Shown: positions 1 to 15,788 of the stretch, one piece after another
Position numbering within the stretch: the first letter of the stretch is position 1
How the letters are laid out: every line of letters starts with the position of its first letter
Source: a virus
Length of the DNA: 32,059 nt
Direction: 5' to 3' (one strand)
Virus record (IMG/VR): IMGVR_UViG_3300009124_000057
Coordinates: 1-32,059 of that record
Notes under the pieces: model-generated
Database searches by the model: none
What the model was told of the DNA's origin: nothing
What the model saw: only the letters and a program-made list of their open reading frames with translations
Position numbers and translations under genes: made by a program

Positions 1-224
1 CCTGGTAACATTGCTAAACCTTCGTGGGACCACTCAGGGTGACCATCAACCACGACATTATGTGGTGGTAGCATATTATTGATAAAATGTACAGATTCTC
101 CAGCATTGATTGATACCTCAGCAGGTTCAAATACCAAGTTGCCATTAGCACCCATCTGGACATCTACTGCCCATGCAGGAACAGCAAAAAACAATGTAGC
201 AAATAGAGCGATTAGAAACTTCAT
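1..224 (-). CDS. petE: Plastocyanin, 3'-truncated by the window edge
   Basis: Copper electron carrier of the thylakoid lumen, moving electrons from cytochrome b6f to photosystem I. Translating from the ATG at 224 gives 74 residues before the window ends. They include a hydrophobic signal peptide ending in PAWA with likely cleavage near residue 19, then the typical plastocyanin start (VQMGANGNLVFEPAEVSI) and the copper-ligand segment LPPHNVVVDG with its histidine. The C-terminal Cys, His and Met ligands lie outside the window, so integrity of the copper site cannot be judged. Phage-encoded petE is known in cyanomyoviruses and is thought to sustain electron flow during infection. It lies 88 bp downstream of the exported metallopeptidase-like gene on the same strand. 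The identification is firm; only completeness is unknown. Confidence 0.93.
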   Translation of the reverse strand, partial: MKFLIALFATLFFAVPAWAVDVQMGANGNLVFEPAEVSINAGESVHFINNMLPPHNVVVDGHPEWSHEGLAMLP

Positions 225-289
225 AAAAGTTTATGCGTCTAACCTATCTATCCGACCACATTGTTTTGGCGTTTGTTTGTAATGATAGT

Positions 290-316
290 TTTATAATTGT
301 GTTAGCATATGCTCAA
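290..316 (-). promoter_or_regulatory. Possible weak sigma70-type promoter for petE
   Basis: In the 88-bp gap before petE the minus strand has TTGAGC (311-316) and TATAAA (290-295) separated by 15 nt, shorter than the optimal 17. A 10-bp palindrome, AGCATATGCT, covers 304-313. This is a weak match in AT-rich spacer and could be chance; petE may simply be read from upstream. Confidence 0.25.
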
Positions 317-1002
317 GATTGTACGTCAATGTAACCGTTCTCTTCTAACCATTTGCGTGTGAGAGGAGTTGGTGTATAGTCTTTCCACATAGTCTTATTG
401 GCACATGATCGCAGTGCTTTCATAGTCATTCCCTCTGTCTTGCCTGCCCATGTCGCCTCTGCCTCCCATGGCACTGCTGACGCTGGATATGTTCGCTCTA
501 CCATTTCTCTCCACAACATAGGCACATCTTCCTCTGGCATGATAATAGCAATCATGCTATTCTTGATGCTACCTGCCATACAATCTTGTGCAGCGTGCCA
601 TCCTTCATGACGCATGACGCTCATCAATGTAGATGGGCGACCCATGTGTGATTTGTTCAAGAAGAATGCATTGCTCACAGTATGGTAGACACCACGATGT
701 CCGACTGGGAAGTATCTCTCATCAGCAAGATATACTTTGACACCAATTTGATTGAGTGTCATGAGCATATTGTTGAACTCTTGTGCTACTGGTGTGAATG
801 CTTCCACATTCTCATAGTTAGAACTAATGTCTAACATGCTGAACACTTCCTTCACATCTTTCTTACACTCGCGCATGAGCATACAACCCATGGCATCATA
901 AGAATAATAACCTTTGGTGATCTTATCCTCAGCAGCAGATGCTGAGAGACCATGTGCAGCACCAAATAATGCGCCAGCAAGAATTACATCGAATAGTTTC
1001 AT
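313..1002 (-). CDS. Exported HExxH metallopeptidase-like protein
   Basis: 229 aa. Residues 1-24 form a signal peptide ending ASAA, so the product is expected in the periplasm or thylakoid lumen of the host. The motif RHEGWHAAQDC at residues 131-141 is an HExxH zinc-binding site (H132, E133, H136), and E180 or E182 in PWEAEATW could be a third, gluzincin-type ligand. C40, C46, C141 and C200 could form disulfides, consistent with export. I do not recognise a named peptidase family, so the activity is inferred from the motif alone. The ATG overlaps the stop of the upstream oxygenase by 4 nt (ATGA), so it is probably translationally coupled to the oxygenase cassette. No transmembrane anchor is seen beyond the signal. 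Confidence 0.75.
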   Translation of the reverse strand: MKLFDVILAGALFGAAHGLSASAAEDKITKGYYSYDAMGCMLMRECKKDVKEVFSMLDISSNYENVEAFTPVAQEFNNMLMTLNQIGVKVYLADERYFPVGHRGVYHTVSNAFFLNKSHMGRPSTLMSVMRHEGWHAAQDCMAGSIKNSMIAIIMPEEDVPMLWREMVERTYPASAVPWEAEATWAGKTEGMTMKALRSCANKTMWKDYTPTPLTRKWLEENGYIDVQS

Positions 1003-1646
1003 AGTTTTACCAGGTTATGTTCGGTGTCTTGAATCGCACTCGCTGGCAAAACATCAATACCAATGCTAATACGTGGAACAAGAGAGTTTTTGTGTTGTGT
1101 AGACCAATGAATCAAATACTCAGGATAGAGTGACAGATATCCTGCTTTGTTTTCAACCTCAACAGCATCCAATCCAAAAGGATTTTGATAGAAATTAGAG
1201 GTCTTTTCACACTGTAGGATGAGATCTCCAGACAGAAAACTATACTCATCAAAGTTATGTTGATGAGGTTTGATTGCTTGACCACGCCGCAAGATAGAAC
1301 CCCACATTCTACCGTAGAGTTGCTCAGCATAGTTGGGATACATTTCTTTTATAGCATGTTTGACTGCTGTTTTGATCTGTGAGCATTCGGGATTATCCCA
1401 GTCAAACATATTATATGCTCTAAACTTTGCAGTTAGAGAGTCAGGACCCATACCAGTACCACCATCATCAGTATGATCCCTATTCTGTGCGATTATATCA
1501 CCTTCCTTTGATAGGATGGTTTGTGCTAGTTGAACACATTCTGTTGCGGAGAGGATGTTGCATCTCCACATCTTTGCACTATAACTAACTGCTGCTGGTG
1601 TTTGAGTTTTATTTGGTTGCTCAAACAAAGTTGTAACATTACTCAT
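999..1646 (-). CDS. 2OG-Fe(II) oxygenase-like protein (cassette member 4)
   Basis: 215 aa from the ATG at 1646. The frame is open to a TTG at 1670, but the ATG overlaps the upstream stop by 8 nt (ATGAGTAA), a normal phage junction, so I chose it. Likely iron ligands are in PHQHN (H128/H130) and in LIHW (H170), with the 2-oxoglutarate-binding arginine R182 in PRISIGIDV. This is the double-stranded beta-helix layout of the family often annotated as putative 2OG-Fe(II) oxygenase (TIGR02466-like). The reaction would be oxygen- and 2OG-dependent hydroxylation of an unknown substrate. It is the last of four such genes in a row and is coupled to the HExxH gene downstream. Confidence 0.75.
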   Translation of the reverse strand: MSNVTTLFEQPNKTQTPAAVSYSAKMWRCNILSATECVQLAQTILSKEGDIIAQNRDHTDDGGTGMGPDSLTAKFRAYNMFDWDNPECSQIKTAVKHAIKEMYPNYAEQLYGRMWGSILRRGQAIKPHQHNFDEYSFLSGDLILQCEKTSNFYQNPFGLDAVEVENKAGYLSLYPEYLIHWSTQHKNSLVPRISIGIDVLPASAIQDTEHNLVKL

Positions 1647-2352
1647 TTGGTGTTCTGATTCCCATCCCAACTAATGAATATCTATGAGTGTCTAGGAAGG
1701 ACTCCTCAGGAATATATGCCGAATGGAAATATCCTCCATCATATACAACACAACTATTATATTCAATCGGAACCATCGTGTCAAGTTTCCAATCATCATC
1801 ACCACGGAAACATTTCCATGGCACAACACTACTATTTGATTCTGGGAACAGTTGATCGTATTCTTCTTTGTTCAATTCAGTAACATATTGTTTATCCTTC
1901 CATTTCCAAAATGCTGTACCACCAACACCGTGAGACATCCACAAATTGAACACAAAATTGATGACATTCAGTCCACCCTCAGGGTCAACAAACACATCAG
2001 CATGTGGTTGTTCAGAGTTTTCTAGCATGGGCATATCACCCGTGAAAACATTAGTAAACACACGAATTGGTGCAAAATCTACATCTTGACGAATACGTTC
2101 AACAATAGTTGCAGCAGCATATGGTGGAATCTCTTGACGCCAACCAGGTGCAAATCCACCAGTACGTTTCCACTGTGTAGAGATTACTGGGAACTGTTCC
2201 ATCACCTCAACATACAGGTCAGGATTCTTTAGGAAGTCTCTATACATTTTGAAAGAATTCATCCCATCAACACTGACTGTTACCAGTTCAGTGTCAGGGT
2301 TGATCTCAACTGCTTTCAGAAACTTCTCTTCGTCGATCCAATTTAGAGTCAT
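1639..2352 (-). CDS. DUF6445-like protein, probable 2OG-Fe(II) oxygenase fold (cassette member 3)
   Basis: 237 aa. It differs in sequence from its three neighbours but shows the same active-site logic: an HxD motif in QPHADVF (H117, D119), a distal histidine in GYFHSAY (H210) and an arginine in HRYSLVG (R224). The segment NFVFNLW...GGTAFW between them fits the beta-strands of a cupin-like barrel. It resembles the DUF6445 family, from memory and not from a search. Substrate is unknown. The start overlaps the preceding oxygenase stop by 4 nt and its stop overlaps the next gene by 8 nt, so all are likely translated as a set. Confidence 0.65.
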   Translation of the reverse strand: MTLNWIDEEKFLKAVEINPDTELVTVSVDGMNSFKMYRDFLKNPDLYVEVMEQFPVISTQWKRTGGFAPGWRQEIPPYAAATIVERIRQDVDFAPIRVFTNVFTGDMPMLENSEQPHADVFVDPEGGLNVINFVFNLWMSHGVGGTAFWKWKDKQYVTELNKEEYDQLFPESNSSVVPWKCFRGDDDWKLDTMVPIEYNSCVVYDGGYFHSAYIPEESFLDTHRYSLVGMGIRTPNE

Positions 2353-3029
2353 TTTCTTACCACTTTGAATGAATATGTACCCCTGCTGTCTAGCACCTCA
2401 GGAAGCACGTTGAACGAAATACTAATACGATTGTCGGCATGACTGTTTTCATAACCGTGTAGCAGGTTAGACTGCCATAACAGCAGGTCTCCTTCATCGT
2501 TAGGAAGGATAGCACCAGTAGAATTATACTTGGTCTGCTTTGTTTCTGTCAATTCTAGATATGGTTTACTCATGGCACCAGGCACACCACCAGGGAATTG
2601 AAATCCTAGATGTGGGTGCTTGCCCTTTACAAAGTTTGCATAGTATGTACCACTGATGAACGAATTACTATGACAATGCATGAATTGGAATCCAGCATAG
2701 TCACACTTATTCAACCAACAGTCCGTGATAATTACACCCTCACACTTATAACCAAGAGTATTGTTGATGTAATCCATACAACAATCTTTGATCCAATCAT
2801 GGAACTTATCCCACCCAGGTTCTTCTAGAAGAGATTGACCAGCAGAATTGAAGTAATGCTCTAGATCAATAGAGTTACCATTCATTTTACTGATCTCGGT
2901 GTCACCATCATACTTCTCTAGTATCTCAAAAGATTTCTCTTTGACATCATCAATACCATTTTTGGGCATACGATAGATACCAATCGCTTGAGGGAAAACC
3001 TCAATCACATTTGCTGATTTTTGTTCCAT
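2349..3029 (-). CDS. 2OG-Fe(II) oxygenase-like protein (cassette member 2)
   Basis: 226 aa. The core motif FMHCHSNSFISGTYY (H118, H120) is followed by GDLLLWQSNLLHGYE (H191) and RISISFNVLP (R201), the expected spacing of iron ligands and the 2OG-binding arginine in the TIGR02466-like family. The N-terminal part is less distinctive. It is clearly paralogous to the upstream gene at 3031-3684, with HSNSF..SG and the SFN strand shared, so a local duplication is likely. It lies 1 nt from its upstream neighbour and overlaps the downstream gene by 4 nt. Substrate unknown. Confidence 0.8.
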   Translation of the reverse strand: MEQKSANVIEVFPQAIGIYRMPKNGIDDVKEKSFEILEKYDGDTEISKMNGNSIDLEHYFNSAGQSLLEEPGWDKFHDWIKDCCMDYINNTLGYKCEGVIITDCWLNKCDYAGFQFMHCHSNSFISGTYYANFVKGKHPHLGFQFPGGVPGAMSKPYLELTETKQTKYNSTGAILPNDEGDLLLWQSNLLHGYENSHADNRISISFNVLPEVLDSRGTYSFKVVRK

Positions 3030-3030
3030 A

Positions 3031-3684
3031 TCAAAATTCTAGACGATTTAGTGCAAAGTCATGTCCAAGTTTGCCTGTCATCCAGATGTTGAACGACACA
3101 CTATTTCTTGGTTTAGTAGTTTCAGAGGGTATTGTACTATGTTCTAACCAAGATGGAAAGATTAGCATCATACCTTTCTTTGGACGAATAACAATTTCAC
3201 CTGAGTTGAACTTATTAGTCTGTCTGATTCTAGGCATAATCTGATATCTAGAGGTCAGAGGATCAATAAACTTGATACTTCCTCCACCGTTATCACCAAT
3301 CTCTACGTTACCAGGATACCATACTCCAGAGAAGAATGAATTACTATGTGCATGTGTATGAATACCACCACCTTCATGCATAGCATTACCCCACATTGAT
3401 GTGATATATGGTTCAATATCCATATAACCACACTTATCCCAAACATTCATAACAGCACTAATAACTTTAGTGCAGAAGTTTTGAAACAATGGTTCAGTGT
3501 GAAGTGTATCTCTGGTAGAACATACACTCTGTTCATCACCAGGAGTTGCATCTTTATTCAGTTCTTTCACAATCTCAGGTTGTTCATCAACAACACACGA
3601 GAATTCAAACAAAGGAACTGAAAAAATTTCATGCACAAATGAGTCCATCGGTTGTGATGGACCCCCATAACTAAAATAAGACAT
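3031..3684 (-). CDS. 2OG-Fe(II) oxygenase-like protein (cassette member 1)
   Basis: 217 aa. The motif HTHAHSNSFFSGVWYPG (H109, H111, H113) supplies the first iron ligand region, PSWLEHST (H182) the distal histidine, and KPRNSVSFNIW (R193) the 2OG-binding arginine. The strand order fits a jelly-roll dioxygenase of the TIGR02466-like family. The start codon shares one base with the stop of the coiled-coil gene before it (TGATG), with a clear AGGAGG-type ribosome site just upstream. This strong site would load ribosomes for the coupled oxygenase genes that follow. Function in infection is unknown. Confidence 0.8.
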   Translation of the reverse strand: MSYFSYGGPSQPMDSFVHEIFSVPLFEFSCVVDEQPEIVKELNKDATPGDEQSVCSTRDTLHTEPLFQNFCTKVISAVMNVWDKCGYMDIEPYITSMWGNAMHEGGGIHTHAHSNSFFSGVWYPGNVEIGDNGGGSIKFIDPLTSRYQIMPRIRQTNKFNSGEIVIRPKKGMMLIFPSWLEHSTIPSETTKPRNSVSFNIWMTGKLGHDFALNRLEF

Positions 3685-4445
3685 CAGTCCTCCTTAGAAC
3701 TTTCAAGCATATTAGTGATGGGATTGTCACCACCAGTAATCATATCATGAAGTGGTACATTCAAAGTCTCTTCAATATTTTCCCAGGTAGGAAGTTTGAA
3801 GTTGTTAGGATCACGCAACAACTGGTTTGCAGCAGGTTGTAGGGCACGTTCAATCTTCTGAAGTTGAGCACCTAGCAGGTTACTATATTGGAAACCGACA
3901 GACAATGCTTTGAGTTGATCTTCCTCAGGCATCATAGAGATAGAGTCTAGGTTACCAACACTGATACGACCGAAAGACATCATGTCAAGTGCTGCTTGTT
4001 TGCCCATACGAGCAATCCAATACTTACGCTCTTCCTCTTCATCATCGTTCCAATAACGCAGGAGATCTTCTTCAGTCTCACACGATTCCTGTACTTGCGT
4101 GATAAAATCTTCGGATTCTTTTTGCTGACGCTTCAGTTTACGCTCTGCAATCTCAATATCGAGGACCTTATCTTTGTAATCGATCTCAAGAAGTTCACGC
4201 TCATAGTCATCTTCACACTCGTCAAGACGTTGCTGAATGTACTTTGCATGTACTTTCTCCTTCTCAAGTTCAAACTCAATCTTCTTTAGTGAGTGTGTAC
4301 GGTTTTCAAGTTCAAGCAATGCTTGTCTAACTTGACGATACTTAGTAACATGCGACTTACCAACAAAGATTTCGTTTTGGTACTTTGTTTGTCCGCCAGC
4401 ATACTTTACTGAGTAATCAAGAATCTGCTCAGGTGTTAGTGCCAT
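3684..4445 (-). CDS. Coiled-coil protein of unknown function
   Basis: 253 aa. Residues about 30-115 are highly charged with heptad-like spacing of hydrophobics (ELENRTHSLKKIEFELEKEK and onward), predicting a long coiled coil. The rest is mixed helix with a conserved-looking SFGRISVGNLDSIS segment. I recognise the type from cyanophage genomes, where it is usually hypothetical or virion-associated, but I cannot assign a role. It follows the 302-aa structural-type gene and directly precedes the oxygenase cassette with a 1-nt overlap, so it is probably cotranscribed with both. An assembly chaperone or fibre accessory protein is possible; nothing in the sequence decides this. Confidence 0.7.
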   Translation of the reverse strand: MALTPEQILDYSVKYAGGQTKYQNEIFVGKSHVTKYRQVRQALLELENRTHSLKKIEFELEKEKVHAKYIQQRLDECEDDYERELLEIDYKDKVLDIEIAERKLKRQQKESEDFITQVQESCETEEDLLRYWNDDEEEERKYWIARMGKQAALDMMSFGRISVGNLDSISMMPEEDQLKALSVGFQYSNLLGAQLQKIERALQPAANQLLRDPNNFKLPTWENIEETLNVPLHDMITGGDNPITNMLESSKED

Positions 4446-4474
4446 ATTGAAAAGATAACGATATATTATGTAGA

Positions 4475-5383
4475 TTAGAAGGCGAGACCAATTCCTAGGA
4501 TTTGTGTGCGGGTCTCTACACCAGTTTCGGCATCAATAACTAGTCTACCTTCATCAACTGCTTGAGTCTGAGGCATCTCAATATTGAAGTAATCTTCATA
4601 GAAGCGATTCATTTCTCGAATGGTTGTGCAGTTCTTGTATGCCTGCTTTACTTCTGCCATCTTCTGAAGGAGTTTAGTTACTTTAGTCTTGTGACTAACC
4701 CTGGCAGTGTTGATTTTAGCAACTATTTCTTCTACTGTCAACCCCCTAGCAGTAGCAAGTGCAGTCAAGATGGGCACCTCAGCAGTATTATCTGCTTCCC
4801 ATGCCTTTGCTTCTTCCCACTGATAAACAAATGTAACTTCTTCTAAAATATTGTTTAGATCGAGTTTTGATAATCTATTATCAAATTCTTCTTCTACAAC
4901 TGCTTTAGCAACTGCTTTCATTGCTAGAACTGTTGCATCCTTACGTTGTTGATCGAATGGGATAGCAACCTTTTCTCCAGGATTTTGATCTGGTTGTGTG
5001 ACTGTCAAGACAGTTGTTTGTGGATCAAATGCAAATAGTGTAGGATTCCAAGAGTTTGTAACACCACTCTCGTTATCTGGGTCAGTGTCAACACCACCAG
5101 CAGCAGTATTGTCTAAGATCTCACCATCACCCAAGTCGGTTCTAATCAGTTTGATTGTATCTCTTACCTCAGCAAAGGATCTAAATCCCTTACTTCCTAC
5201 CATCTCATTCAGAGTATAAAATCTATTTTGGGGATTTGTTAGACGATAAGTATCCTCAAAGATTGACTTGTTCGTTGTCGCAACAGAGAACGAAATCCAA
5301 TCTAGGACAGAGTAATAGTTGACGAACTCTTCTGGCATCGAGTTCATCCACTTTCCTGCTTTTGCGAGATAGTATGTACGCAT
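4475..5383 (-). CDS. Putative virion structural protein (302 aa)
   Basis: 302 aa with no signal peptide or membrane segment. The N-terminus has aromatic-rich segments (WMNSMPEEFVNYYSVLDWIS), the middle is Asp/Gly/Asn-rich around residues 85-130, and residues 150-270 look mainly helical. No enzymatic motif is seen. It sits 12 nt after the last fibre gene and before the coiled-coil gene, within the late block, which suggests a virion or assembly role. I cannot name a T4 counterpart. Confidence 0.65.
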   Translation of the reverse strand: MRTYYLAKAGKWMNSMPEEFVNYYSVLDWISFSVATTNKSIFEDTYRLTNPQNRFYTLNEMVGSKGFRSFAEVRDTIKLIRTDLGDGEILDNTAAGGVDTDPDNESGVTNSWNPTLFAFDPQTTVLTVTQPDQNPGEKVAIPFDQQRKDATVLAMKAVAKAVVEEEFDNRLSKLDLNNILEEVTFVYQWEEAKAWEADNTAEVPILTALATARGLTVEEIVAKINTARVSHKTKVTKLLQKMAEVKQAYKNCTTIREMNRFYEDYFNIEMPQTQAVDEGRLVIDAETGVETRTQILGIGLAF

Positions 5384-5395
5384 TGTTATTTCCTA

Positions 5396-6889
5396 TTAGT
5401 AAGAACCGAAACCACCGTAAGCACCAGTACCATCAGCGAGTGGTTCACCGCCGATTGCTTGATAACCAGAACCTGTGTAAGTCATGTAGGAGCGTGGAAC
5501 AATACCAGCACCAATCATGTCTCCTGCCTCTCTACCAATACCAGAAGAAGATCCAGGGATGCCCTTACGATATGTGATAGTAGAGTCAGCGAAGAGAACA
5601 GTATCAACGTAGTAGTAATAGATCCAAGAGTTGTTGTTCTGTGCTCCGTTATAGTTAGAGATACAGTAACCTTTGTTCATACCAGTGTGGTTGTTTTCTT
5701 CACCACCTGATTCGGGTTTGCTAATACCAGAACGTAGAATGACTGCATCAGAGTCACGACGCTTAGTAAGTGATCTGTTTCTGTTTCTACCCTCAGAAGC
5801 ATAGAAGAAACTAATTCTAGTACGCTGGTGCTTGTTCAGACCACCAGAGTTAGGTGCAGGAGCATAGTTGGACCATGCAGTATATGTCTCAGTGGCGAAT
5901 TCAAATCTATACTGACCTTCAGATACCCATGAGTGATACTCACCTTCAGCGTGTGCAACACGGTTGATGGATCCACTAATATCACTCAGCATAACCTCAG
6001 TGTTGAGATCGTGACGGTCAGTGTTACCATTACCAGAGGTAATGTATGCTCTGTTTCTACCGTTGTTTGTGTACCACTGGTTACCTAGGAAGTCAATCCA
6101 TGCACCAGAGTAAGATCTATTTCTCAGAGTGTTCCAGTTACCGTTTTGACCACGGTTTGTTTCCGTAATCATCGAGTATGAACATGTGTTTGCAACAGCA
6201 GGCAACCAAGAGTTAGCACAGTTGTATACAAAGATGTTGATACCATTCATCGATCCGCCGATGTATGCAGCAGATCTATCAATAACATCACCTAGAGATA
6301 GAGTAACGTCAGCAGAGTGAGTGGTACGGTTACCGTTACGATATGGAGCAGCACTCTTATATCCACCGATGGTATAACCACGGTTGATAATGTATCTAAA
6401 GGGCCACTGTGTGAGGTTTTCAAGTCTATAGTTAGAGTCTAGATCATGTGTCCAATATGCTTCATACTCATCATTGTTTCTGACGTTATCATCATCGTAT
6501 GCATTACCACTAGCACGACGACAACGAAGCACCGCACCTGAGGTATCATCATTCATGTCGGGGATACCACCACCAACATCTGCCCAAGCATTAGTAGCAT
6601 CGTACACCTCAACTTTACCAGTTGTGGTGTTATACCTCAGCATACCCTGAACAGGTGATCCAGGTCTCTGGGCATCAGTTCCTTTAGGCAGGACCATGCC
6701 ATCAGTAAGACCAGACATGTCGAAACCGACCGCTGGAGTGGTTGTACCAACGCCGATGCGATCATTCGTAGAGTCAACAAACAGGGTTCCACTGTCAAAG
6801 TTGAAACGACCAGCACTGTCAATCTCTAGTTCTGGGGATGCACCACCAGCAGTAAGACCCGATATTCTGTCAACATTTAGTCTAGACAT
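5396..6889 (-). CDS. Tail fibre/adhesin-like protein with unique C-terminal domain
   Basis: 497 aa. The N-terminus (MSRLNVDRISGLTAGG) and residues 67-107 (LPKGTDAQRPG, then GMLRYNTTTGKVEVYD) form the module shared by the five neighbouring fibre genes, probably for attachment or trimerisation. The remaining 390 residues are rich in Asn, Tyr, Arg, Ser and Gly, with no domain I recognise, ending in a Gly/Tyr-rich tail (GAYGGFGSY). That composition is typical of beta-rich receptor-binding tips. A late promoter (ATAAATA) stands 25 nt upstream of the start, so this gene can be expressed separately from the adhesins before it. Host receptor unknown. Confidence 0.75.
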   Translation of the reverse strand: MSRLNVDRISGLTAGGASPELEIDSAGRFNFDSGTLFVDSTNDRIGVGTTTPAVGFDMSGLTDGMVLPKGTDAQRPGSPVQGMLRYNTTTGKVEVYDATNAWADVGGGIPDMNDDTSGAVLRCRRASGNAYDDDNVRNNDEYEAYWTHDLDSNYRLENLTQWPFRYIINRGYTIGGYKSAAPYRNGNRTTHSADVTLSLGDVIDRSAAYIGGSMNGINIFVYNCANSWLPAVANTCSYSMITETNRGQNGNWNTLRNRSYSGAWIDFLGNQWYTNNGRNRAYITSGNGNTDRHDLNTEVMLSDISGSINRVAHAEGEYHSWVSEGQYRFEFATETYTAWSNYAPAPNSGGLNKHQRTRISFFYASEGRNRNRSLTKRRDSDAVILRSGISKPESGGEENNHTGMNKGYCISNYNGAQNNNSWIYYYYVDTVLFADSTITYRKGIPGSSSGIGREAGDMIGAGIVPRSYMTYTGSGYQAIGGEPLADGTGAYGGFGSY

Positions 6890-6913
6890 GAAATGTAGTT
6901 ACCTCTTCTTGTT

Positions 6914-6920
6914 TATTTAT
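6914..6920 (-). promoter_or_regulatory. T4-type late promoter (ATAAATA)
   Basis: Minus-strand CATAAATAA, ending 25 nt before the ATG at 6889. It matches the T4-like late consensus TATAAATA at 7 of 8 positions and overlaps the stop of the upstream fibre gene (6917-6919). Its distance to the gene matches the other late promoters in this window. Confidence 0.7.
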
Positions 6921-7990
6921 GACAATCCAGGTTCTTCCTCTCGGAAATAGAACTCCATATCCTGAACTGCATTATCAGGACCACGAGATGCTTCCAAATG
7001 CATTGGATCAGCGTGGAACCATTGGTTTGCCTGATAACCACCTTCATTGGTTTCCCAATACAGAATAGAACGACGAACTAGGAATGTTTCAAATGATCCC
7101 TGGTTGTCATTATTCTGGTTGAAACTAGAGTTCCATGCAATGCCAGGATATGATGGTCCATTCTCATAACGAACACGGTCTGCTTCACCTGCAATATAAT
7201 CTCTAGACACCAGACCCATTGGTCCCTTCTTACTCATCTTACACTTATAAATGACAGTACCAATGTTGTTATTGGGGAATGTCCAGTTAGTTTGATCGTT
7301 AGTATCAAACCTCTCAATGTCAGCAATTTCCCAGATAAAAATCTTACTTTGACACTCAGTACGACGTGCCATCATCTGACTTTGATCGCTTGCTCCATCA
7401 ATTGCTTTTGCAAAATCCATTCTAGAAAATGCAGTTCTATTGGTCTTTGCATTTGCCGAAATCTGTCCGTAAGTATTGAATAGTGGTAGATAGTTGCTAC
7501 CAACAGTGTTAGTCTTATTAGTATTGATCGTTCCTGCATATGCAACCATCATCCAACCACCACCATCAGTAGTCATATCACAGTAGACCTGAGTAGCAGG
7601 AAAACTATTACCATTAGCACCAGTTGGTTTGATCCAATAAACACCATCAGGAGCATTAGGATACTGTCTCTTGATAGCAAGTGCAGATGGTGCTGCTGTT
7701 GCTGCAGAAGTTCCCAGATTAGTGTAGGTTGAAGCTCCAGAACTAGCACCAATTTGTGCCCAAGCAGCACCTGTATAGACCTCAGTGCCACCTGAATCAG
7801 TATTGAATCGAATCATACCTGTAGTAGGTTGAGCAGGTCTCTCTGCCGTTGTTCCTGCAGGTATACTAAGAGTTGCTGTGGTGTCTAGTTTTAGATCACC
7901 CTGAATCTGTAGGTTTGCATTAGTAGGTACAACGACTCTAAACTCGTTATCCCCAGTTGCTTGGATTGAAGATACTCTAATTGTGCTCAT
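6917..7990 (-). CDS. Fibre protein with fibrinogen-like C-terminal domain
   Basis: 357 aa. Residues 1-82 carry the shared fibre module (MSTIRVSSIQATG; IPAGTTAERPAQP; GMIRFNTDSGGTEVYTG). From about residue 110 the segment PNAPDGVYWIKPTG followed by VYCDMTTDGGGWMMV is the hallmark start of a fibrinogen C-terminal-like fold, normally a carbohydrate or protein-binding domain. The rest has a Trp/Asn-rich pattern consistent with such a lectin-like tip. It likely recognises host surface glycans; this is inference from the fold. The start overlaps the preceding glycine-rich adhesin stop by 1 nt (TAATG). Confidence 0.8.
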   Translation of the reverse strand: MSTIRVSSIQATGDNEFRVVVPTNANLQIQGDLKLDTTATLSIPAGTTAERPAQPTTGMIRFNTDSGGTEVYTGAAWAQIGASSGASTYTNLGTSAATAAPSALAIKRQYPNAPDGVYWIKPTGANGNSFPATQVYCDMTTDGGGWMMVAYAGTINTNKTNTVGSNYLPLFNTYGQISANAKTNRTAFSRMDFAKAIDGASDQSQMMARRTECQSKIFIWEIADIERFDTNDQTNWTFPNNNIGTVIYKCKMSKKGPMGLVSRDYIAGEADRVRYENGPSYPGIAWNSSFNQNNDNQGSFETFLVRRSILYWETNEGGYQANQWFHADPMHLEASRGPDNAVQDMEFYFREEEPGLS

Positions 7991-9144
7991 TATAGTCTAT
8001 ACCTGATAATTACTATTCCAGTGCCACCAGCACCACCTCCGCCGCCGCTGCCAGAGTTGGTTGAACCTCCTCCACCACCACCGCCAGTGTTATCTACACC
8101 GCCAATACCCCCGTTGTTTCCACCAGGCGCACCACCATTTCCCCCGCCACCAGCACCTCCGAAACCACCTGTGTGAGCAGGGTCGTGCGAACCCCCTCCA
8201 CCACCGCCTGCATAATACTTATTAGCTCCAGATATTCTATATTGGAGACCAGTACCACCGTCTCCGCATTCACCAGAAATACTATTGTTTCCACCCGTAG
8301 ATGGACCCCAACCCCTGTTACCAGGCATCAAAGCACCGCCTCCACCACCTGCATTCCAGGTGTTTTCAGTGCCATAACCACCAGAAGTACCGAAACCACC
8401 AGAAGTAGATCCAGGTTGAGTTGCATCGCCACCATTTGCATCATATCTACCACCGCCGCCAGATCCACCATTGGAACCATTGTTCTGACCATCTGAACCA
8501 CCACCGCCACCACCTAAAGCAGTTACGGTTGTAAATCCTGTAGGACCAGTAATTGTAGTATTTCCACCATTATTACCACGAGCTCCAGCACCGCCACCGC
8601 CACCGCCAATAATGCCGACACCGACAGTATGAGCACCAGTTACAGGAAACTGGAAGGATGTTCCGAGACGTGGTAGTTCACCACCATAATAGACGACGCC
8701 TCCGCCGCCACCACCGCCTCCAGAGCGACCTCCGCCGCCTCCTCCACCACCAACCATCAATAGTTCAGCATAACCTGCTCTAGTGACGTTGAAGGTGCCA
8801 TTAGAGGTGAACATATGAGTACGCCACCCATCAAAGTCATAGACAAAGTTACCACCAGTTGCTGCCATACCCTGAGAGATATTGGTAGTAACTGTTAGAT
8901 CTTGCCACGCAGATCCATCATAAACCTGTGCTCCACCCTGAGTGGTGTTCCAGATCATTAGACCTGTTGGAGGAGCACTAATTGCGTTTCTTTGTGCATC
9001 TGTCAAAGATGGAAGTTGCATAGCACCGTTACCACAACGTGCATCAAGTTCTTGATTGATTGTCAACGTTGTACCAAAAGCAGTTCTCACAGTTCCAAGA
9101 CTCTGAGCAATCCCTTCCAATCCAGAAATGTATATTCTACTCAT
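7990..9144 (-). CDS. Glycine-rich adhesin-type fibre protein
   Basis: 384 aa. Residues 1-83 are a diverged copy of the shared fibre module (MSRIYISGLEG; LPSLTDAQRNA; GLMIWNTTQGGAQVYDG). From about residue 118 (MFTSNGTFNV, YAELLMVGG) it becomes a glycine-rich domain with more than a dozen poly-Gly runs separated by short variable loops, closing with GIVIIRYRL. This is the layout of glycine-rich receptor-binding domains (Gly_rich_2-like), and it is reminiscent of the polyglycine-II sandwich of T-even gp38 adhesins. The poly-Gly runs create triplet-repeat DNA. It is packed between two fibrinogen-like fibres, with 1 nt to one and a 1-nt overlap to the other. Confidence 0.85.
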   Translation of the reverse strand: MSRIYISGLEGIAQSLGTVRTAFGTTLTINQELDARCGNGAMQLPSLTDAQRNAISAPPTGLMIWNTTQGGAQVYDGSAWQDLTVTTNISQGMAATGGNFVYDFDGWRTHMFTSNGTFNVTRAGYAELLMVGGGGGGGGRSGGGGGGGGVVYYGGELPRLGTSFQFPVTGAHTVGVGIIGGGGGGAGARGNNGGNTTITGPTGFTTVTALGGGGGGSDGQNNGSNGGSGGGGRYDANGGDATQPGSTSGGFGTSGGYGTENTWNAGGGGGALMPGNRGWGPSTGGNNSISGECGDGGTGLQYRISGANKYYAGGGGGGSHDPAHTGGFGGAGGGGNGGAPGGNNGGIGGVDNTGGGGGGGSTNSGSGGGGGAGGTGIVIIRYRL

Positions 9145-9145
9145 G

Positions 9146-10069
9146 TTATTTTACCCAGAACCATCCATTTGCTTGACCAAATTGATCACTTCTCAGTCCG
9201 CAGTTTGTCCCCTGCTCAGGATGGCGGCCGTAAGCGAAATAAGTACCCCCACCTGTATGGTGATCTCCCATACCTCTAGTACCTGTGTTGGGATTTCTGT
9301 CTGAGAATTGTCCTTCATACTGGAGGGCGATGTTTGTACGAGCGTTTTGTCCACTTGCACTATTGAGTAGGTCAATAGTCATAGCATATGGGAAGAAGTG
9401 ATTCACAGGACCATAGTTAGAAGTCCAGTGACCAGACTCCAACCAATAAGGAGTCTGTCCTCTATATAGACTACTATTCCTCAGGTTCTGGATAAACGTA
9501 TCTGCCATCTTGATAGTAACCTGGGCATCATAGATAGGACCCTGTAACGTACTATCAGTTCTAGTAAATGTTCCAACTTGTCCGTTAGTAACGTGTGCTT
9601 GACAATCCTCTCGACGGATTACAACTGCACACGTCCAACCACCAGCATATCTACGATTATCAACATACATTCGATATGCTAAGTTTTCGTTGTTTGGTTG
9701 AATATAATAATATCCAGTCTCAAAACCAAAATAGTTTAGATGTTGCCCACTAGGAGCAGGATCAGCAACAGTTCCGAGAGTCGTTACACTAGTTGCACCT
9801 GATCCAGTAACAACCCAGTTAGTACCATCCCAAGATTCAACAACTTGTTCAGTCTCATTATAAAATAAAGAACCAACTCTAGTTCCTTTTAGTGGTCTAA
9901 CATTCTGAGGGGCATGTGGTAAAGGCAATCCAGCGTTTCCTGTCAATGAAAGATTGCCATCAACTTGTAGAGGATCATCAACATCTACATGGAATGCAGG
10001 AATGGTAGCACCATCGACAGTTGCAGAAGTCCCAAGACCCTGTATGTTCTGTACCTTTAGTGTTCCCAT
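9146..10069 (-). CDS. Fibre protein with diverged fibrinogen-like domain
   Basis: 307 aa. The N-terminus (MGTLKVQNIQGLG) and residues 48-88 (LPHAPQNVRPL, GSLFYNETEQVVESWDGTNW) belong to the shared fibre module. The segment FETGYYYIQPNNENL followed by MYVDNRRYAGGWTCAVV resembles the fibrinogen-like start seen two genes downstream, but with D-N-R replacing the D-M-T-T-D-G-G pattern, so the match is weaker. Its C-terminal region contains a His/Gly-rich stretch (GMGDHHTGGGTYFAYG) and ends in NGWFWVK. It is probably a receptor-binding tip. It overlaps the preceding short fibre gene by 1 nt (TAATG). Confidence 0.7.
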   Translation of the reverse strand: MGTLKVQNIQGLGTSATVDGATIPAFHVDVDDPLQVDGNLSLTGNAGLPLPHAPQNVRPLKGTRVGSLFYNETEQVVESWDGTNWVVTGSGATSVTTLGTVADPAPSGQHLNYFGFETGYYYIQPNNENLAYRMYVDNRRYAGGWTCAVVIRREDCQAHVTNGQVGTFTRTDSTLQGPIYDAQVTIKMADTFIQNLRNSSLYRGQTPYWLESGHWTSNYGPVNHFFPYAMTIDLLNSASGQNARTNIALQYEGQFSDRNPNTGTRGMGDHHTGGGTYFAYGRHPEQGTNCGLRSDQFGQANGWFWVK

Positions 10070-10500
10070 TATCTAACACTCCAACTTGCTCCGTTCTGAA
10101 CCGTAACAGTAAAGCCCGAGGAAATAGTTACTGGACCTGCAGTCATTCCGTTGGTAAATTCAGCACCAGTTTGTGTTCCAGTTGGTCCAACAGTTAGATT
10201 TTCATCGATGGTATTAGCATTGGTTCTAATAATACTATCCTCACCAATCGAAGGACCACCACCAGCGAGAGGGAACCAATTAGAACCCTGACCAGGTGCA
10301 GAAGGACGATAAATTTCGGCAGCAAGTAAATCACTGTTATATCGTACAGTACCATCATCAACACCCTCAGGTCGCTGATCGCTAGTACCAGAAGGCAAAG
10401 CAAGTACAGCGTTACCAGAAGAGTTTAGGAATTTTAGAGAGGAAATAATTGCAGCAGTTGACTGTGCAATATTATTACCATTGATTTTAGTAAGTGACAT
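10069..10500 (-). CDS. Short fibre protein consisting mainly of the shared module
   Basis: 143 aa. It has the shared N-terminal module (MSLTKINGNNIAQ; residues 35-80 with LPSGTSDQRPEG and GTVRYNSDLLAAEIY), followed by a short beta-rich end (GPVTISSGFTVTVQNGASW) common in phage fibre termini. It has no large tip domain. It is first in the adhesin operon behind a late promoter 23 nt upstream. It could be a capping or adaptor subunit for the longer fibres, or a fibre that lost its tip; neither can be settled from sequence. Confidence 0.7.
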   Translation of the reverse strand: MSLTKINGNNIAQSTAAIISSLKFLNSSGNAVLALPSGTSDQRPEGVDDGTVRYNSDLLAAEIYRPSAPGQGSNWFPLAGGGPSIGEDSIIRTNANTIDENLTVGPTGTQTGAEFTNGMTAGPVTISSGFTVTVQNGASWSVR

Positions 10501-10522
10501 ACCCGTACTAGATCCTTATTAG

Positions 10523-10529
10523 TATTTAT
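10523..10529 (-). promoter_or_regulatory. T4-type late promoter (ATAAATA)
   Basis: Minus-strand AATAAATACT, ending 23 nt before the ATG at 10500 and lying in the 32-nt gap after the 1252-aa gene. It probably drives the four coupled fibre genes from 10500 to 6917. A good late-promoter match at a spacing like that of the others. Confidence 0.7.
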
Positions 10530-10532
10530 TCG

Positions 10533-13500
10533 TCAGATAGGCATTTCGATGATGTGGACTACATCTCCATTAGAAGGAATTGTGCCCTGATCAAAGAGAA
10601 CGTTCGTGCCGTTAGAGTCAACGTTATAGTTAGTTCCTCCAATCTGTGCAACACCATTGATAAACACAAGTACAGAACTTGCAGTGTGCTGAACACCAGT
10701 ATATGCTGTAATTGCAAAGCTCTGAGTAGAACCGTTGGCAGCATATTCACGAGTGATGTACTTAGCAGGAGATACTGCACCACGACCAGTAACAGTTAGG
10801 TCACCATCAATGTAAGTGTTGCCATCAATAGTTACACGGTTTCCAGATGTAGCACTAGTACCAAAACCGATATGCTGTTCACCACTGAATGTCTGAATAT
10901 CGATGAATCCAGTGTCAGTTAGACCAAACTTTTTCCAGTTACCTTCATAATAAATCCAACCAAGATCTTTACCAGGTATCCAGTTGATGTTGTAAACTAG
11001 GTCACCATCAGCAGGAGTATCATAACCAGTGATGTTAGAGAAGTCAGGATTGCCCTGTGCATTCTCAGGTGCTAGTAGAGTCTGCTTGATAACAGTACCA
11101 TCTTGGTTGAAGTACGTCAGTTTCTTTGCCAGAATGTTATCGGTAAACGATGTCTGGTTCTGGAAAGTAACAGGACCAGCGAAGATAGATTCCAACTGGT
11201 TAGATGCACCACCGATGACGGTGAGTTTATCAGTCAGAACCAGTTCGGAGAACGTTTGAATGGTGGTATTCTCTTCACCAATAACGTTCAACTGTGCAAT
11301 ATCTTCGTTTGTGATCTGACCCGTAACTGGGTTGATGATCTGGTTACCAATGAACAGGTCACCGTTAGAGTTCAGACCAGAGTAGAATGCAACACCTGCA
11401 TCTTCTTTAGTAGACTGAGAGAACTTGATCTGATCTTCAGATAGAGTTTCAACCTGAGTCTGTGGGAATGCAGTCGAGTAGTTACCAGGACCGAAACCAG
11501 TATATTCAAACGTATGGTTACCAGAACGTAGAATGGAGTGTCTTCTCAGTTCTACAGGAATTGGCGCAACGTTGCCATCAGTATCAATTCTGATGGGGAT
11601 CTTACGAGTTTCTTCATCACCAAGACGTGCAGTTAGATTGATGTTAGACAGTCTTTGGTTGACAGAATCCCAGTTGGGTCTTGTACCAGGTTCTGCCCAG
11701 TTTGCATCTGCCAAGAGGAACAGAACTGCTTCCTTAGTGATGGAACGCTGTGGATCTTTGTTGTTTTCGGCAGGTGCGTTGCCATTCGTAGCATAAACCA
11801 GACCGATAGTTCTAATATCAGCAACAGAAACTGCTGCGGCAGGGTCTGCTACAGGGTTGTCTCTGTCGAATGATGGATATACTTCATTGATGTTCTGAGA
11901 GAATCTCTTGTCATCATAGTTAGAAGTTTGTGGTGTAATCGAAGCACAAAGTAGAGTCAGATAATAGATACCATCTGCTTCACCACGAACAAACCTTTGC
12001 TTGGTCTCAATATCGTAAACATAGAATGTTTTAGATAGATTATATCTTGTAGTGTCCGTGTTCAATGGTTGCATGACGAAACCAGAGATAGGAGAACGTG
12101 GCAGTGGCAATTGCTGCTCCTGAGGAATCACCATACGAACACGATATGTTCTGTCAACCAGGTTTCTTGCGTCAGGAACACGCTTGATAAATGTGGTTGG
12201 AGTGAAGTTTACATTATTATACTGAGTGTTAGTTGTGATAGTAGTGTAAATCTCATTGTCAGTGTTATCAACTGAGAGATACCAACCAGCAGGAGCACCA
12301 CCAGTAAATGCGTTACCATATACGCCAGGGTCATACTGTAGTGGAGATCCAGCAACACCAGCAGCAAGACCAGATACCGTAGGTCCGAATGGACTAATCT
12401 TTGCACTCTGTACGGTTGCTTCCTGTGCGCCTGCAGCAACCAATAGACAATTCAGTTTATCGGGAACTGCACTAGCACCTACACCATCTTGGCGAGCACC
12501 GATAACATAACCCTGAACCTTTGTGGTTGGAGGAGAATCTTCATTGGTATAACCATAGAGATACAATCTAGTACCAGGTGTTCCACCAACGTTAGACAAC
12601 TGTGCGTTGACAGTTTTAGTTCTCTGAATGTCAATGTTGACCCAGTTGATAGAAACTTCATCAACATCTGCTAGAGATTTGGGTGGAATGATATGAGTAA
12701 GTTGTCCTGCCTTATCTTTTGTAAATGCTGCTTGCTTGAAACCTTTGGATCTTAGAGCAACAGAACCAAAGTTAGAGTTGGAGTTGGTGATCGACATGTC
12801 AGCACCTGCCAATCCAACAAAGTGGTCGCCATATCCCACAGCGAACACCGAAACGACCTGAATAAATGCGTCGTTAGATGCTAGAACGTGAGTGTGTGAC
12901 CATCCCTTTCTATATCTTGCAAAACCATCTAGGTGAGCACCATCACCAGCAGTTGCTGCGAGGTAGTTGCCAGTTGATTCATCGAATCTTACAAATGCAC
13001 GGTCATCTTTTTGAAGAGATAGACCCGTGAACTGTGCCACAACCATCGATTTGAAACCAGTTGCTTTGCTACCATCAGCGTGCATACCGTTCATGCCCCA
13101 GACACTTCTCAGGGACAGGTTGAACATGTATGGCGATGCAGAGTCAACTGTATCGATCTCAACTTTTACAACGATGTTTGTACCAACTGCGTTACCTGTT
13201 GGTTCGCCTGCCATCTGATAGGTAAAGGTATTACCAGATGCAGATGTAACTTGGAACGAACCATTGTACAGTGATGCATCAACCTCACCAGATGTACCAG
13301 TAGAAGATGTAACACCACTGATGTTGACGTTTACACCAACAGAGAATCCATGCTCTCTTGGGTTGCCCAGTTCGTCAACAGTAATTGCAGTTGCAGTTTG
13401 ACCGTTACGAGTAATTTGTAGAACACGATATTCGTCGGAGATAGGACCAACGATTCTGTTTTCTTCGACTCTTGCCTGAATCTGGTCAGTACCAGGATCG

Positions 13501-14291
13501 CCAGATGTATCAGGAATTGTAGTAAATGCTTTCGATACTTTCTGGTAGTAAATGTCTAGGTCAGTTCTATCTTCAATACCAGAGACAGCACTATAGTCTG
13601 CTTCAGGTACTCTGCCCTGTGAAATTAGATCGGAAAGTGTGTTCGTACCATCAGCAAAACCAAATGCTGTTAGTTTGTGGTGCGAATAAGATGGTGGGAT
13701 AGTTTCAGTAGAGTCTGGTCTAAAATATACACCAGTGTCATCACCATCAAAGAAGGAGAACTGCCAGAAGTAACAACCACCAGTTACACTAAAGATGTTA
13801 CATGCAGAAGGAACCTGATCCTCAGTGTTGATATTCTTAGCAGCGTAGATAGTTGGATATGGAACGTACTTAGGAATGATCTTTGTTCTTCTCAGGTCAG
13901 AACCAACAATAGAACAACCTCTAGGAACAATAACACCACCCTCAATCGAATTGTACTTATACAAAACGTTGTTGGGTGATGTAATGTCAAAGTTGGAGTT
14001 TTCGTCCAGAGGTGCTACGTTTGTGTATAGCACATCACCTGGTCTGTTATCAATAACGTACTCTGAAGGATACAGATAAATCGAGAATGCATCAAATTCG
14101 TCGTTGGAAAGACCAACTCGATACGAGAAACGTGCCACCTCAAGAAATGCGCGTTGCAGACTCTTGAAAGGTCTCAACGAAGAGTTACCTCTGTTATCAA
14201 TAGCGTCCGAAGCGTCGAAATCGTCAGGGTTGACGTAGATAATACGACCCGTTCGGGACGTAATAATATTCTTGAGTCTTGTTAGTGACAT
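10533..14291 (-). CDS. Large virion structural protein, possible tailspike/fibre (1252 aa)
   Basis: 1252 aa, the largest late-block gene. The N-terminus (MSLTRLKNIITSRTGRIIYV) leads into a segment with SLRPFKSLQRAFLEVARF and YLYPSEYVIDN, similar in style to the start of pectate-lyase-like beta-helix proteins of phage tails. The middle is long and beta-rich without enzymatic motifs I can defend. The C-terminal third has a fibre-like region (TFSELVLTDKLTVIGG, VTIDGNTYIDGDLTVTG) and ends with a compact domain (VLVFINGVAQIGG). A late promoter lies 25 nt upstream. Likely a tail-fibre or baseplate-attached structural protein; glycan-cleaving activity is not evident. Confidence 0.7.
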   Translation of the reverse strand: MSLTRLKNIITSRTGRIIYVNPDDFDASDAIDNRGNSSLRPFKSLQRAFLEVARFSYRVGLSNDEFDAFSIYLYPSEYVIDNRPGDVLYTNVAPLDENSNFDITSPNNVLYKYNSIEGGVIVPRGCSIVGSDLRRTKIIPKYVPYPTIYAAKNINTEDQVPSACNIFSVTGGCYFWQFSFFDGDDTGVYFRPDSTETIPPSYSHHKLTAFGFADGTNTLSDLISQGRVPEADYSAVSGIEDRTDLDIYYQKVSKAFTTIPDTSGDPGTDQIQARVEENRIVGPISDEYRVLQITRNGQTATAITVDELGNPREHGFSVGVNVNISGVTSSTGTSGEVDASLYNGSFQVTSASGNTFTYQMAGEPTGNAVGTNIVVKVEIDTVDSASPYMFNLSLRSVWGMNGMHADGSKATGFKSMVVAQFTGLSLQKDDRAFVRFDESTGNYLAATAGDGAHLDGFARYRKGWSHTHVLASNDAFIQVVSVFAVGYGDHFVGLAGADMSITNSNSNFGSVALRSKGFKQAAFTKDKAGQLTHIIPPKSLADVDEVSINWVNIDIQRTKTVNAQLSNVGGTPGTRLYLYGYTNEDSPPTTKVQGYVIGARQDGVGASAVPDKLNCLLVAAGAQEATVQSAKISPFGPTVSGLAAGVAGSPLQYDPGVYGNAFTGGAPAGWYLSVDNTDNEIYTTITTNTQYNNVNFTPTTFIKRVPDARNLVDRTYRVRMVIPQEQQLPLPRSPISGFVMQPLNTDTTRYNLSKTFYVYDIETKQRFVRGEADGIYYLTLLCASITPQTSNYDDKRFSQNINEVYPSFDRDNPVADPAAAVSVADIRTIGLVYATNGNAPAENNKDPQRSITKEAVLFLLADANWAEPGTRPNWDSVNQRLSNINLTARLGDEETRKIPIRIDTDGNVAPIPVELRRHSILRSGNHTFEYTGFGPGNYSTAFPQTQVETLSEDQIKFSQSTKEDAGVAFYSGLNSNGDLFIGNQIINPVTGQITNEDIAQLNVIGEENTTIQTFSELVLTDKLTVIGGASNQLESIFAGPVTFQNQTSFTDNILAKKLTYFNQDGTVIKQTLLAPENAQGNPDFSNITGYDTPADGDLVYNINWIPGKDLGWIYYEGNWKKFGLTDTGFIDIQTFSGEQHIGFGTSATSGNRVTIDGNTYIDGDLTVTGRGAVSPAKYITREYAANGSTQSFAITAYTGVQHTASSVLVFINGVAQIGGTNYNVDSNGTNVLFDQGTIPSNGDVVHIIEMPI

Positions 14292-14315
14292 TTGTTATCT
14301 ACTATCCTTCAGTGT

Positions 14316-14322
14316 TATTTAT
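14316..14322 (-). promoter_or_regulatory. T4-type late promoter (ATAAATA)
   Basis: Minus-strand GATAAATAACAC, ending 25 nt before the ATG at 14291 and touching the stop codon of the upstream gene. It fits the late consensus at 7 of 8 positions. Confidence 0.7.
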
Positions 14323-15788
14323 CAACCGCCAGAAGCAGCGGCACCAGGTTGAGCATTCACATCAAAACTACGAAGTGTGATATCAGATGAAGAATCTTGG
14401 AATCCACTATAGTCAAACATAATGTTTTGTGTTGCAGCATATACGATCAATGCTTGACCAGGACCAATAACCAAAGATGTCAAACGAGTATCAGTACTGA
14501 TGCTCTTATCGTAGACAATCCAATCAGCATCAGAAACTGCTGTAGCAGCAACATCGACAGAACTGATAGTTACGGTAGAACGAGAACCAGCACCATCTGC
14601 AGGTACATCAAAGAATGTATCTGTAGCAACGAAGTCTGCAGATCCATCGCCAGTAGTTAGTTGCAGTGTTGTCCCAGTGTAATCTTGAACATATGCCCAC
14701 TTAGAACCAGCATTAGAATCCAAAGTGAATGTAGTCTGACCCAGGGTGATAGAATCACTAGAGTTTGTCCAGGTGCCTTTTACATCATAGACGTAAATGG
14801 TAGCATAGGAATATTCAGTGGAGAGTTGGAACGTTTGCTCACCACCACCTAGAGTACCATCGTTAGTGTCAAAGTAATAGTAAGTAGCATCGCCACCACC
14901 ATTCTGTGCCATGTCATACTGAACATATGCACCAGCAGTTCCAGCAGTGCCACTGGTTGTTTTGCCAGTAGTATACTCAACACCGTCGTCAGATGTACCA
15001 GCAGTTTCGTCAATACCAAACGTACCATTGATGGTAGTGGAGAGGGCAAACCCAACACCACTCATAGAAGAATCTTCTACAAAGAACTTATAAGTTCTAT
15101 CGAGAAGCAACGTAAGTGCCTCTGTTCTGCGAAGAGAGTAAGTACCACCAGAACCATTATCGGAGAATACTAGTTCAGTACGAGCAACACCAATACCACC
15201 AATAGCAACATCAGCAGTAGCACCAGATGTGCCACCAGTTACAGTGTCACCTTCCGCAAAAGAACCGCCAGTTAGAGGACCAACGTAGATAGTATCACCA
15301 CCGAAAGAACCAGCAATGATTTCATAAATTACACCAGATACACCACCAACACTAACGGTTTCACCAACAACAAATTCACCAGTTTGGTTTTCGAGTGAAT
15401 ATGTAGTTAGGGCAAGTTTCTTTACATAAAAATCTGTCGAGGGAGGAACATAATACGACTCCCAACGGAAAGAACTTTCACCATCATCAGAAGTAACCAA
15501 CTGACCAGGAGTGAAAGTATCATTCTGATCTGTCAGAGTTGGAATATTCTGGTCGAAAGTAAGAGTTCTATTTGTAATTACATCTCCCTTATGGAGAAGG
15601 TAAGTAGATGCATCGACTGTGCATTCTAGATCGAACTTTTTCACACCAACACGAACAGCAGCAGCGGTGCCATCATTGACCATATTCAGAACACCACTCG
15701 CAGAGGAGTCAATCGGTGCTCTATACAGTACAGTATTAGTCGCCGCTGCAGGTTTCGCTGATGCTAGTTTACCCGTAAGTGTTGCCAT
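14322..15788 (-). CDS. Putative virion structural protein (488 aa)
   Basis: 488 aa, very rich in Thr, Ser, Gly, Asp and Val, with low Lys. It contains internal Gly/Val repeats of the type FVVGETVSVGGVSG and FAEGDTVTGGTSGATADV, which are common in phage baseplate and fibre proteins. Tracts around residues 250-350 are Asp/Gly/Tyr-rich. No signal peptide or catalytic motif. It begins 5 nt after the upstream structural gene, so both are probably transcribed from the late promoter at 17145-17152. I cannot match it to a T4 gene. Confidence 0.65.
   Translation of the reverse strand: MATLTGKLASAKPAAATNTVLYRAPIDSSASGVLNMVNDGTAAAVRVGVKKFDLECTVDASTYLLHKGDVITNRTLTFDQNIPTLTDQNDTFTPGQLVTSDDGESSFRWESYYVPPSTDFYVKKLALTTYSLENQTGEFVVGETVSVGGVSGVIYEIIAGSFGGDTIYVGPLTGGSFAEGDTVTGGTSGATADVAIGGIGVARTELVFSDNGSGGTYSLRRTEALTLLLDRTYKFFVEDSSMSGVGFALSTTINGTFGIDETAGTSDDGVEYTTGKTTSGTAGTAGAYVQYDMAQNGGGDATYYYFDTNDGTLGGGEQTFQLSTEYSYATIYVYDVKGTWTNSSDSITLGQTTFTLDSNAGSKWAYVQDYTGTTLQLTTGDGSADFVATDTFFDVPADGAGSRSTVTISSVDVAATAVSDADWIVYDKSISTDTRLTSLVIGPGQALIVYAATQNIMFDYSGFQDSSSDITLRSFDVNAQPGAAASGG

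Follow-up and report, generated by a model that had tools for sequence, protein, structure and literature searches.

Genes and junctions of the oxygenase cassette

The 32,059-nt stretch analysed here (the window; positions 1 to 32,059 of IMG/VR record IMGVR_UViG_3300009124_000057) consists of virion genes from a cyanomyovirus (Kyanoviridae), a virus of marine cyanobacteria. It carries four consecutive genes, oxD, oxC, oxB and oxA, whose products are predicted to have the fold of Fe(II)/2-oxoglutarate (2OG) oxygenases. Over positions 1-10,500 its closest isolates are S-ShM2, S-RIM14 and S-SSM2 (nucleotide identity ~81%). Transcription on the minus strand runs from talC through a shortened homologue of tryptophan (Trp) halogenase, a virion structural gene, two large tail-fibre genes and a series of small fibre-like genes to a coiled-coil gene (cc), and then through oxD, oxC, oxB and oxA to a gene for an exported HEGWH protein and petE (Table 1). 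The fibre and adhesin genes stand in the same order as in S-ShM2. A first-pass annotation of the window had described the four genes as one tightly joined string, and its coordinates and junctions are confirmed. cc and oxD overlap by 1 nt, oxD and oxC are separated by a 1-nt gap, oxC and oxB overlap by 4 nt (ATGA), oxB and oxA by 8 nt, with the start of oxA at the ATG at 1646, and oxA and the HExxH gene by 4 nt. Within this string a strong Shine-Dalgarno sequence precedes oxD only (AAGGAGGACTGATG), from which we infer that the remaining genes are probably translationally coupled.

Table 1. Features of the window, and records used in the oxA comparison
Feature	Position	Strand	Evidence and remarks
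Exported HEGWH protein (phrog_591)	313..1002	-	overlap-joined here; outside the conserved cassette
oxA, divergent PF13759-like	999..1646	-	phrog_81 64.5 bits; H128xH130, H180, R192
oxB, DUF6445 (PF20043) oxygenase-fold	1639..2352	-	PF20043 28.3 bits; phrog_1644 163 bits; H117xD119, H210, R224
oxC, PF13759 oxygenase-fold	2349..3029	-	PF13759 52 bits; phrog_81 144 bits; H118xH120, H191, R201
oxD, PF13759/TIGR02466 oxygenase-fold	3031..3684	-	PF13759 75 bits; TIGR02466 82.7 bits; H111xH113, H182, R193
cc, coiled-coil gene (phrog_1409, T4-GC353)	3684..4445	-	phrog_1409 313 bits; opens the overlap-joined string
Fibre/adhesin genes between halogenase and cassette	4475..14291	-	phrog_529 tail fibre 2050 bits and related phrogs; candidate substrates
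Individual fibre/adhesin genes	4475-5383, 5396-6889, 6917-7990, 7990-9144, 9146-10069, 10069-10500, 10533-14291	-	
Shortened Trp-halogenase homologue, 358 aa	17144..18220	-	PF04820 92 bits; upstream end of fibre genes; proposed associated part
oxA His/Tyr comparison	999..1646 against L001:5823-6470, L025 and L026		

The family matches stand well clear of chance. oxD and oxC exceed the curated Pfam cut-off for PF13759 (27 bits), and the oxD profile matches the solved structures 3bvc and 2rg4. oxA falls under that cut-off at 23 bits and, judging by its phrog_81 match, is probably a distant member of the family; oxB lies above the DUF6445 cut-off (24 bits). PDB sequence searches with oxA and oxB returned no relevant match. 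The AlphaFold model of oxA (predicted local distance difference test, pLDDT, 82.7) has its best PDB matches in 3bvc and 2rg4, followed by ThoJ and PHD2, and protein hydroxylases dominate its fold matches. The oxB model, built with seven sequences (pLDDT 72.9), best matches prolyl-4-hydroxylases, with AlkB-like entries among its fold matches. From these models, which match 2OG oxygenases, oxA and oxB are predicted to form the double-stranded beta-helix, and for oxC and oxD the same fold is predicted from the sequence profile. The window proteins each have the HxH or HxD motif, the distal His and the Arg that the first-pass annotation had pointed out. The Arg, which lies ~8-14 residues past the distal His and is predicted to bind the 2OG carboxylate, is kept within each family; the oxC motif is invariant across 5 sequences.

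PF13759/TIGR02466 (2OG-FeII_Oxy_5; 3bvc, 2rg4) shares sequence, fold and the HxH...H...R pattern with the cassette proteins. Its solved members are titled uncharacterized bacterial proteins, and we found no proven reaction for the family. oxB has the HxD/E...H triad. Neither its HxD nor its distal His varies among 11 phage and bacterial sequences, which makes DUF6445 most likely a family of HxD...H oxygenases and gives it a likely enzymatic fold. The label 'minor coat protein' carried by phrog_1644 appears misleading, as predicted fold and motif point to an enzyme. Relative to S-ShM2, the ratio of nonsynonymous to synonymous substitution (dN/dS) is 0.10-0.18 in all four genes, with dS >1 for three of the four. 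Mutual identity among oxA-oxD is ~15-27%, which rules out recent tandem duplication as their origin. In PADLOC the sole relevant match was to a general CRISPR-associated 2OG model, and a defence role is not supported.

Conservation and recurrence beside fibre genes

The order cc-oxD-oxC-oxB-oxA is kept in S-ShM2 and in 7 of 7 IMG/VR contigs having a close oxB relative, so the gene order proposed as a check in related phages is indeed conserved. Neither this check nor the one on the double-stranded beta-helix and the iron site overturned the first-pass reading. In S-ShM2, S-RIM14 and S-SSM2 (Ahtivirus) the four genes stand in identical order behind the same fibre genes, and the window proteins are 62-85% identical to those of S-ShM2. 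Searching by tblastn with oxB, we found close relatives confined to 12 Ahtivirus-type records. A close-relative scan using oxA alone gave no match, whereas an alignment-based scan did find relatives, and oxA identity falls to 47% among relatives with the cassette. Three of the four genes are already annotated as 2OG oxygenases in RefSeq. The cassette is not new: public genomes contain its genes in this order, and the window is a further example.

In three other genera (P-HM2, S-RIM2 and S-CAM4) T4-GC353 (cc) is immediately followed by T4-GC354, whereas S-ShM2 has the cassette and further genes in between. The cassette is therefore an addition that remains associated with the fibre genes. The coiled-coil and HExxH genes are joined to it by overlap, as first described, but neither is specific to it. 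cc is a common fibre-module gene present in 123 phage records, and was set aside as a cassette gene on that count and on the direct succession of GC354 in the three genera. The HExxH gene is real, with a HEGWH motif and a signal-peptide-like N-terminus. It occurs in 366 phage records at varied places; in the three Ahtivirus isolates it follows petE and other genes rather than oxA directly, as it does in the window (in S-ShM2 it lies ~2 kb past oxA, after petE and gnd). The metallopeptidase, earlier counted as part of the cassette, is thus excluded from it.

We surveyed 13 genomes with 144 oxygenase loci; the genomes were chosen partly for having oxygenase matches, which may inflate clustering. 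Runs of at least three oxygenase genes number 6, against 0.46 under random placement, a uniform null that does not fully model insertion hot spots. Position relative to fibres was assessed in the nine genomes that match the phrog_693 fibre strongly. Of their 97 oxygenase loci, 40 lie within 25 kb after the phrog_693 gene (a span of our own choice), where 13.4 would be expected; in 20,000 rotations of the genomes, a procedure that leaves clustering intact, a count of 40 was never reached. The placement after adhesins, which the first-pass annotation had remarked on, is far from random across these nine genomes.

Four oxygenases in a row, singled out at first as noteworthy, are not exceptional. 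S-CAM8 and S-SSM5 have four consecutive oxygenase-fold genes near fibres (by Pfam match or annotation; PF13759 and PF13640), in each case with one gene annotated 'DNA endonuclease' and in S-SSM5 with another annotated 'TPR domain protein'. syn9 and Syn10 each have about nine oxygenase-like genes downstream of two fibre-assembly genes and two halogenases. DUF6445 and a JmjC/cupin protein are among them, though gp46 has no Pfam match and some other matches are weak. P-TIM40, P-RSM6 and S-SZBM1 have a resembling arrangement. The syn9/Syn10 island is like the cassette region in its tandem oxygenase-fold genes, PF13759 and DUF6445 among them, right behind fibre and fibre-assembly genes, and in the presence of halogenases. 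It differs in its larger number of genes, including PF13640 and the JmjC/cupin protein, in the two full-length halogenases that adjoin it, and in that the sets are non-orthologous. Differing oxygenase sets thus occupy a similar place in S-SSM5, S-CAM8, syn9, P-TIM40, P-RSM6 and S-SZBM1. S-SCSM1 has 24 such oxygenase genes; in the part of its virion proteome account covered here no oxygenase is named among 45 proteins, 13 of them of unknown function, which fits enzymes that act in the cell rather than being packaged.

Cyanophage proteins called 'DNA endonuclease' or 'DNA endonuclease V' match 2OG-FeII_Oxy_3 (PF13640) at L016:4384-4902, L021:1079-1678 and L135:12899-13417 and 14022-14606, the two from syn9 (L135) scoring below the cut-off. 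The label 'DNA endonuclease V' looks wrong for these oxygenase-family proteins and is, on this profile evidence, probably misleading. A 'ferrochelatase'-labelled gene also recurs in or beside the oxygenase runs of S-SSM5, S-CAM8, S-SCSM1 and syn9 (L016, L017, L031, L135).

Halogenases beside the oxygenases

In the 13 genomes, each of the eight full-length PF04820 halogenases has a PF13759 gene no more than 5 kb away (random mean 1.9; 0 of 5,000 placements reached this), and shortened halogenases show no such proximity. The shortened homologue in the window keeps GKGLAG (GxGxxG) and the conserved Lys region; its WxWxIP is degenerate, and about 100 internal residues are missing when it is aligned to tryptophan 5-halogenase. 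With the cassette it brackets the fibre genes, and it is similarly placed in S-ShM2 and 3 IMG/VR contigs carrying the cassette. Relatives of this gene occur in 34 phage records, including Campylobacter phages.

CPUG_00131 of Syn10 (L137:11997-13589) matches the structure of the iodinating viral halogenase VirX1 (PDB 6qgm) over its full length. Its gene lies between the fibre genes and the oxygenase run, which it directly precedes, and one halogenase of the syn9 pair is its positional counterpart. The halogenases MibH and KrmI act on ribosomal peptides. VirX1 groups with both of them (PMC8269204). It has been listed without a pathway, has an open active site and accepts many small aromatic compounds (PMC8407142). 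The genomic context described here suggests where its natural substrate could be sought.

In a small, non-random sample of four Caulobacterales genomes (L126-L134), 6 of 9 DUF6445 copies have a Trp halogenase within ~5 kb. Two of the DUF6445-halogenase clusters examined contain genes for TonB receptors, i.e. surface proteins. These clusters share with the cassette the HxD...H motif of oxB near PF04820 halogenases. They differ in being bacterial and in having several full-length halogenases, and the PF13759 genes of the same genomes lie elsewhere.

Candidate function and rival explanations

Where close relatives have the same four genes, distant ones have other oxygenase sets, frequently accompanied by halogenases. 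This pattern suggests, short of proof, that the enzymes chemically modify attachment proteins. Four diverged proteins with a predicted non-haem-iron oxygenase fold would be translated from one coupled string directly after the fibre genes. They would hydroxylate or otherwise oxidise side chains of newly made small fibres and adhesins before fibre assembly on the virion, and the halogenase homologue, shortened and placed beyond the far end of the fibre genes, possibly participates. We tentatively read the cassette, at somewhat less than even confidence, as an oxidative modification module for virion adhesins and as the form that a recurring island of this kind, linked to tail fibres, takes in Kyanoviridae. 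Besides folds, motifs, conservation and non-random position, this reading draws on the halogenase association, on the TonB receptor genes near bacterial DUF6445, and on the relationship of VirX1 to MibH and KrmI and its open active site. Literature searches on phage tail-fibre hydroxylation and on DUF6445 yielded nothing relevant, and in partial literature coverage we found no paper describing the fibre-halogenase-oxygenase association.

Several observations weigh against adhesin modification. Most oxygenase loci (57 of 97) fall outside the 25 kb after the fibre gene, and an insertion hot spot might account for the post-fibre position. The halogenase of the cassette lineages is shortened and lies ~14 kb from the cassette, at the opposite end of the fibre genes. 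oxA, oxC and oxD have HxH...H, as in 3bvc, instead of the canonical HxD/E. The motif pattern of the window also breaks down in its sister clade, where H180 of oxA is replaced by Tyr in S-ShM2 and two IMG/VR contigs (YLTYW for YLIHW). Because this distal His is predicted to bind iron, oxA may be altered or inactive there, and catalysis is not assured for every cassette protein. The substrate could equally be a small molecule or a host surface polymer, and modification, substrate and activity are putative for all these proteins.

That the enzymes instead act on a small molecule, of host or phage, or on a glycan of the host surface, in a biosynthetic-type pathway whose fibre neighbourhood reflects shared late expression, is rather unlikely. 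Sets of halogenases and oxygenases are usual in natural-product pathways, the broad range of VirX1 for aromatic compounds points the same way, and some islands have a Nol-like carbamoyltransferase, as S-SCSM1 has an O-fucosyltransferase. However, the runs examined, the window cassette among them, come without a synthase or transporter, and the fibre-adjacent position recurs with non-orthologous enzymes. It is likewise rather unlikely that the genes are co-located only, the post-fibre region being an accessory-gene hot spot in which each oxygenase has an unrelated role. petE, gnd, talC and the HExxH gene are also found around this place and oxygenase sets vary between genera, but the excess of runs over random placement, the same four genes tightly packed in the same order in every lineage found, and the consistent proximity of full-length halogenases to PF13759 genes argue for more than shared location.

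The literature offers two further roles for the 2OG oxygenases of cyanophages. Sullivan et al. 2010 (PMC3037559) proposed that they adjust 2-oxoglutarate/NtcA nitrogen signalling, and reported NtcA sites in 16 of 16 genomes, 14 of which have numerous 2OG-oxygenase genes. We consider this very improbable for the cassette, as a stoichiometric sink needs neither four enzymes as diverged as these nor a place after the fibres. A role on DNA, in repair or base modification, is cited as a suggestion in the same work (PMC3037559), and the endonuclease labels on neighbours elsewhere and the AlkB-like matches of oxB would agree with it. The tested proteins so labelled match PF13640 instead (weakly in syn9), the cassette has no DNA modification gene, and protein hydroxylases prevail among the oxA matches; a DNA role is, in our estimate, barely credible.

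The natural substrates of the 2OG oxygenases, whose genes are many in cyanophages, and of VirX1, a solved viral halogenase, are not established in the literature covered. With oxygenases and halogenases both statistically linked to tail-fibre genes, a single testable question emerges, namely whether virion adhesins are oxidised or halogenated. A broader extension of adhesin modification is doubtful: cyanomyoviruses might use dedicated, interchangeable islands of non-haem-iron oxygenases, sometimes joined by flavin halogenases such as VirX1, to tailor their own tail-fibre adhesins as a post-translational diversification of receptor binding, with the bacterial DUF6445-halogenase-TonB receptor clusters as the cellular counterpart. 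Among the candidate substrates, collagen-like G-X-Y repeats were not seen on reading the fibre at 7990-9144, which is Gly-rich (33% G) and matches Gly_rich_2. The Trp content of most small fibres is ~1.3-2.3%, compared with 0.2-0.8% in other virion proteins, no more than a weak hint.

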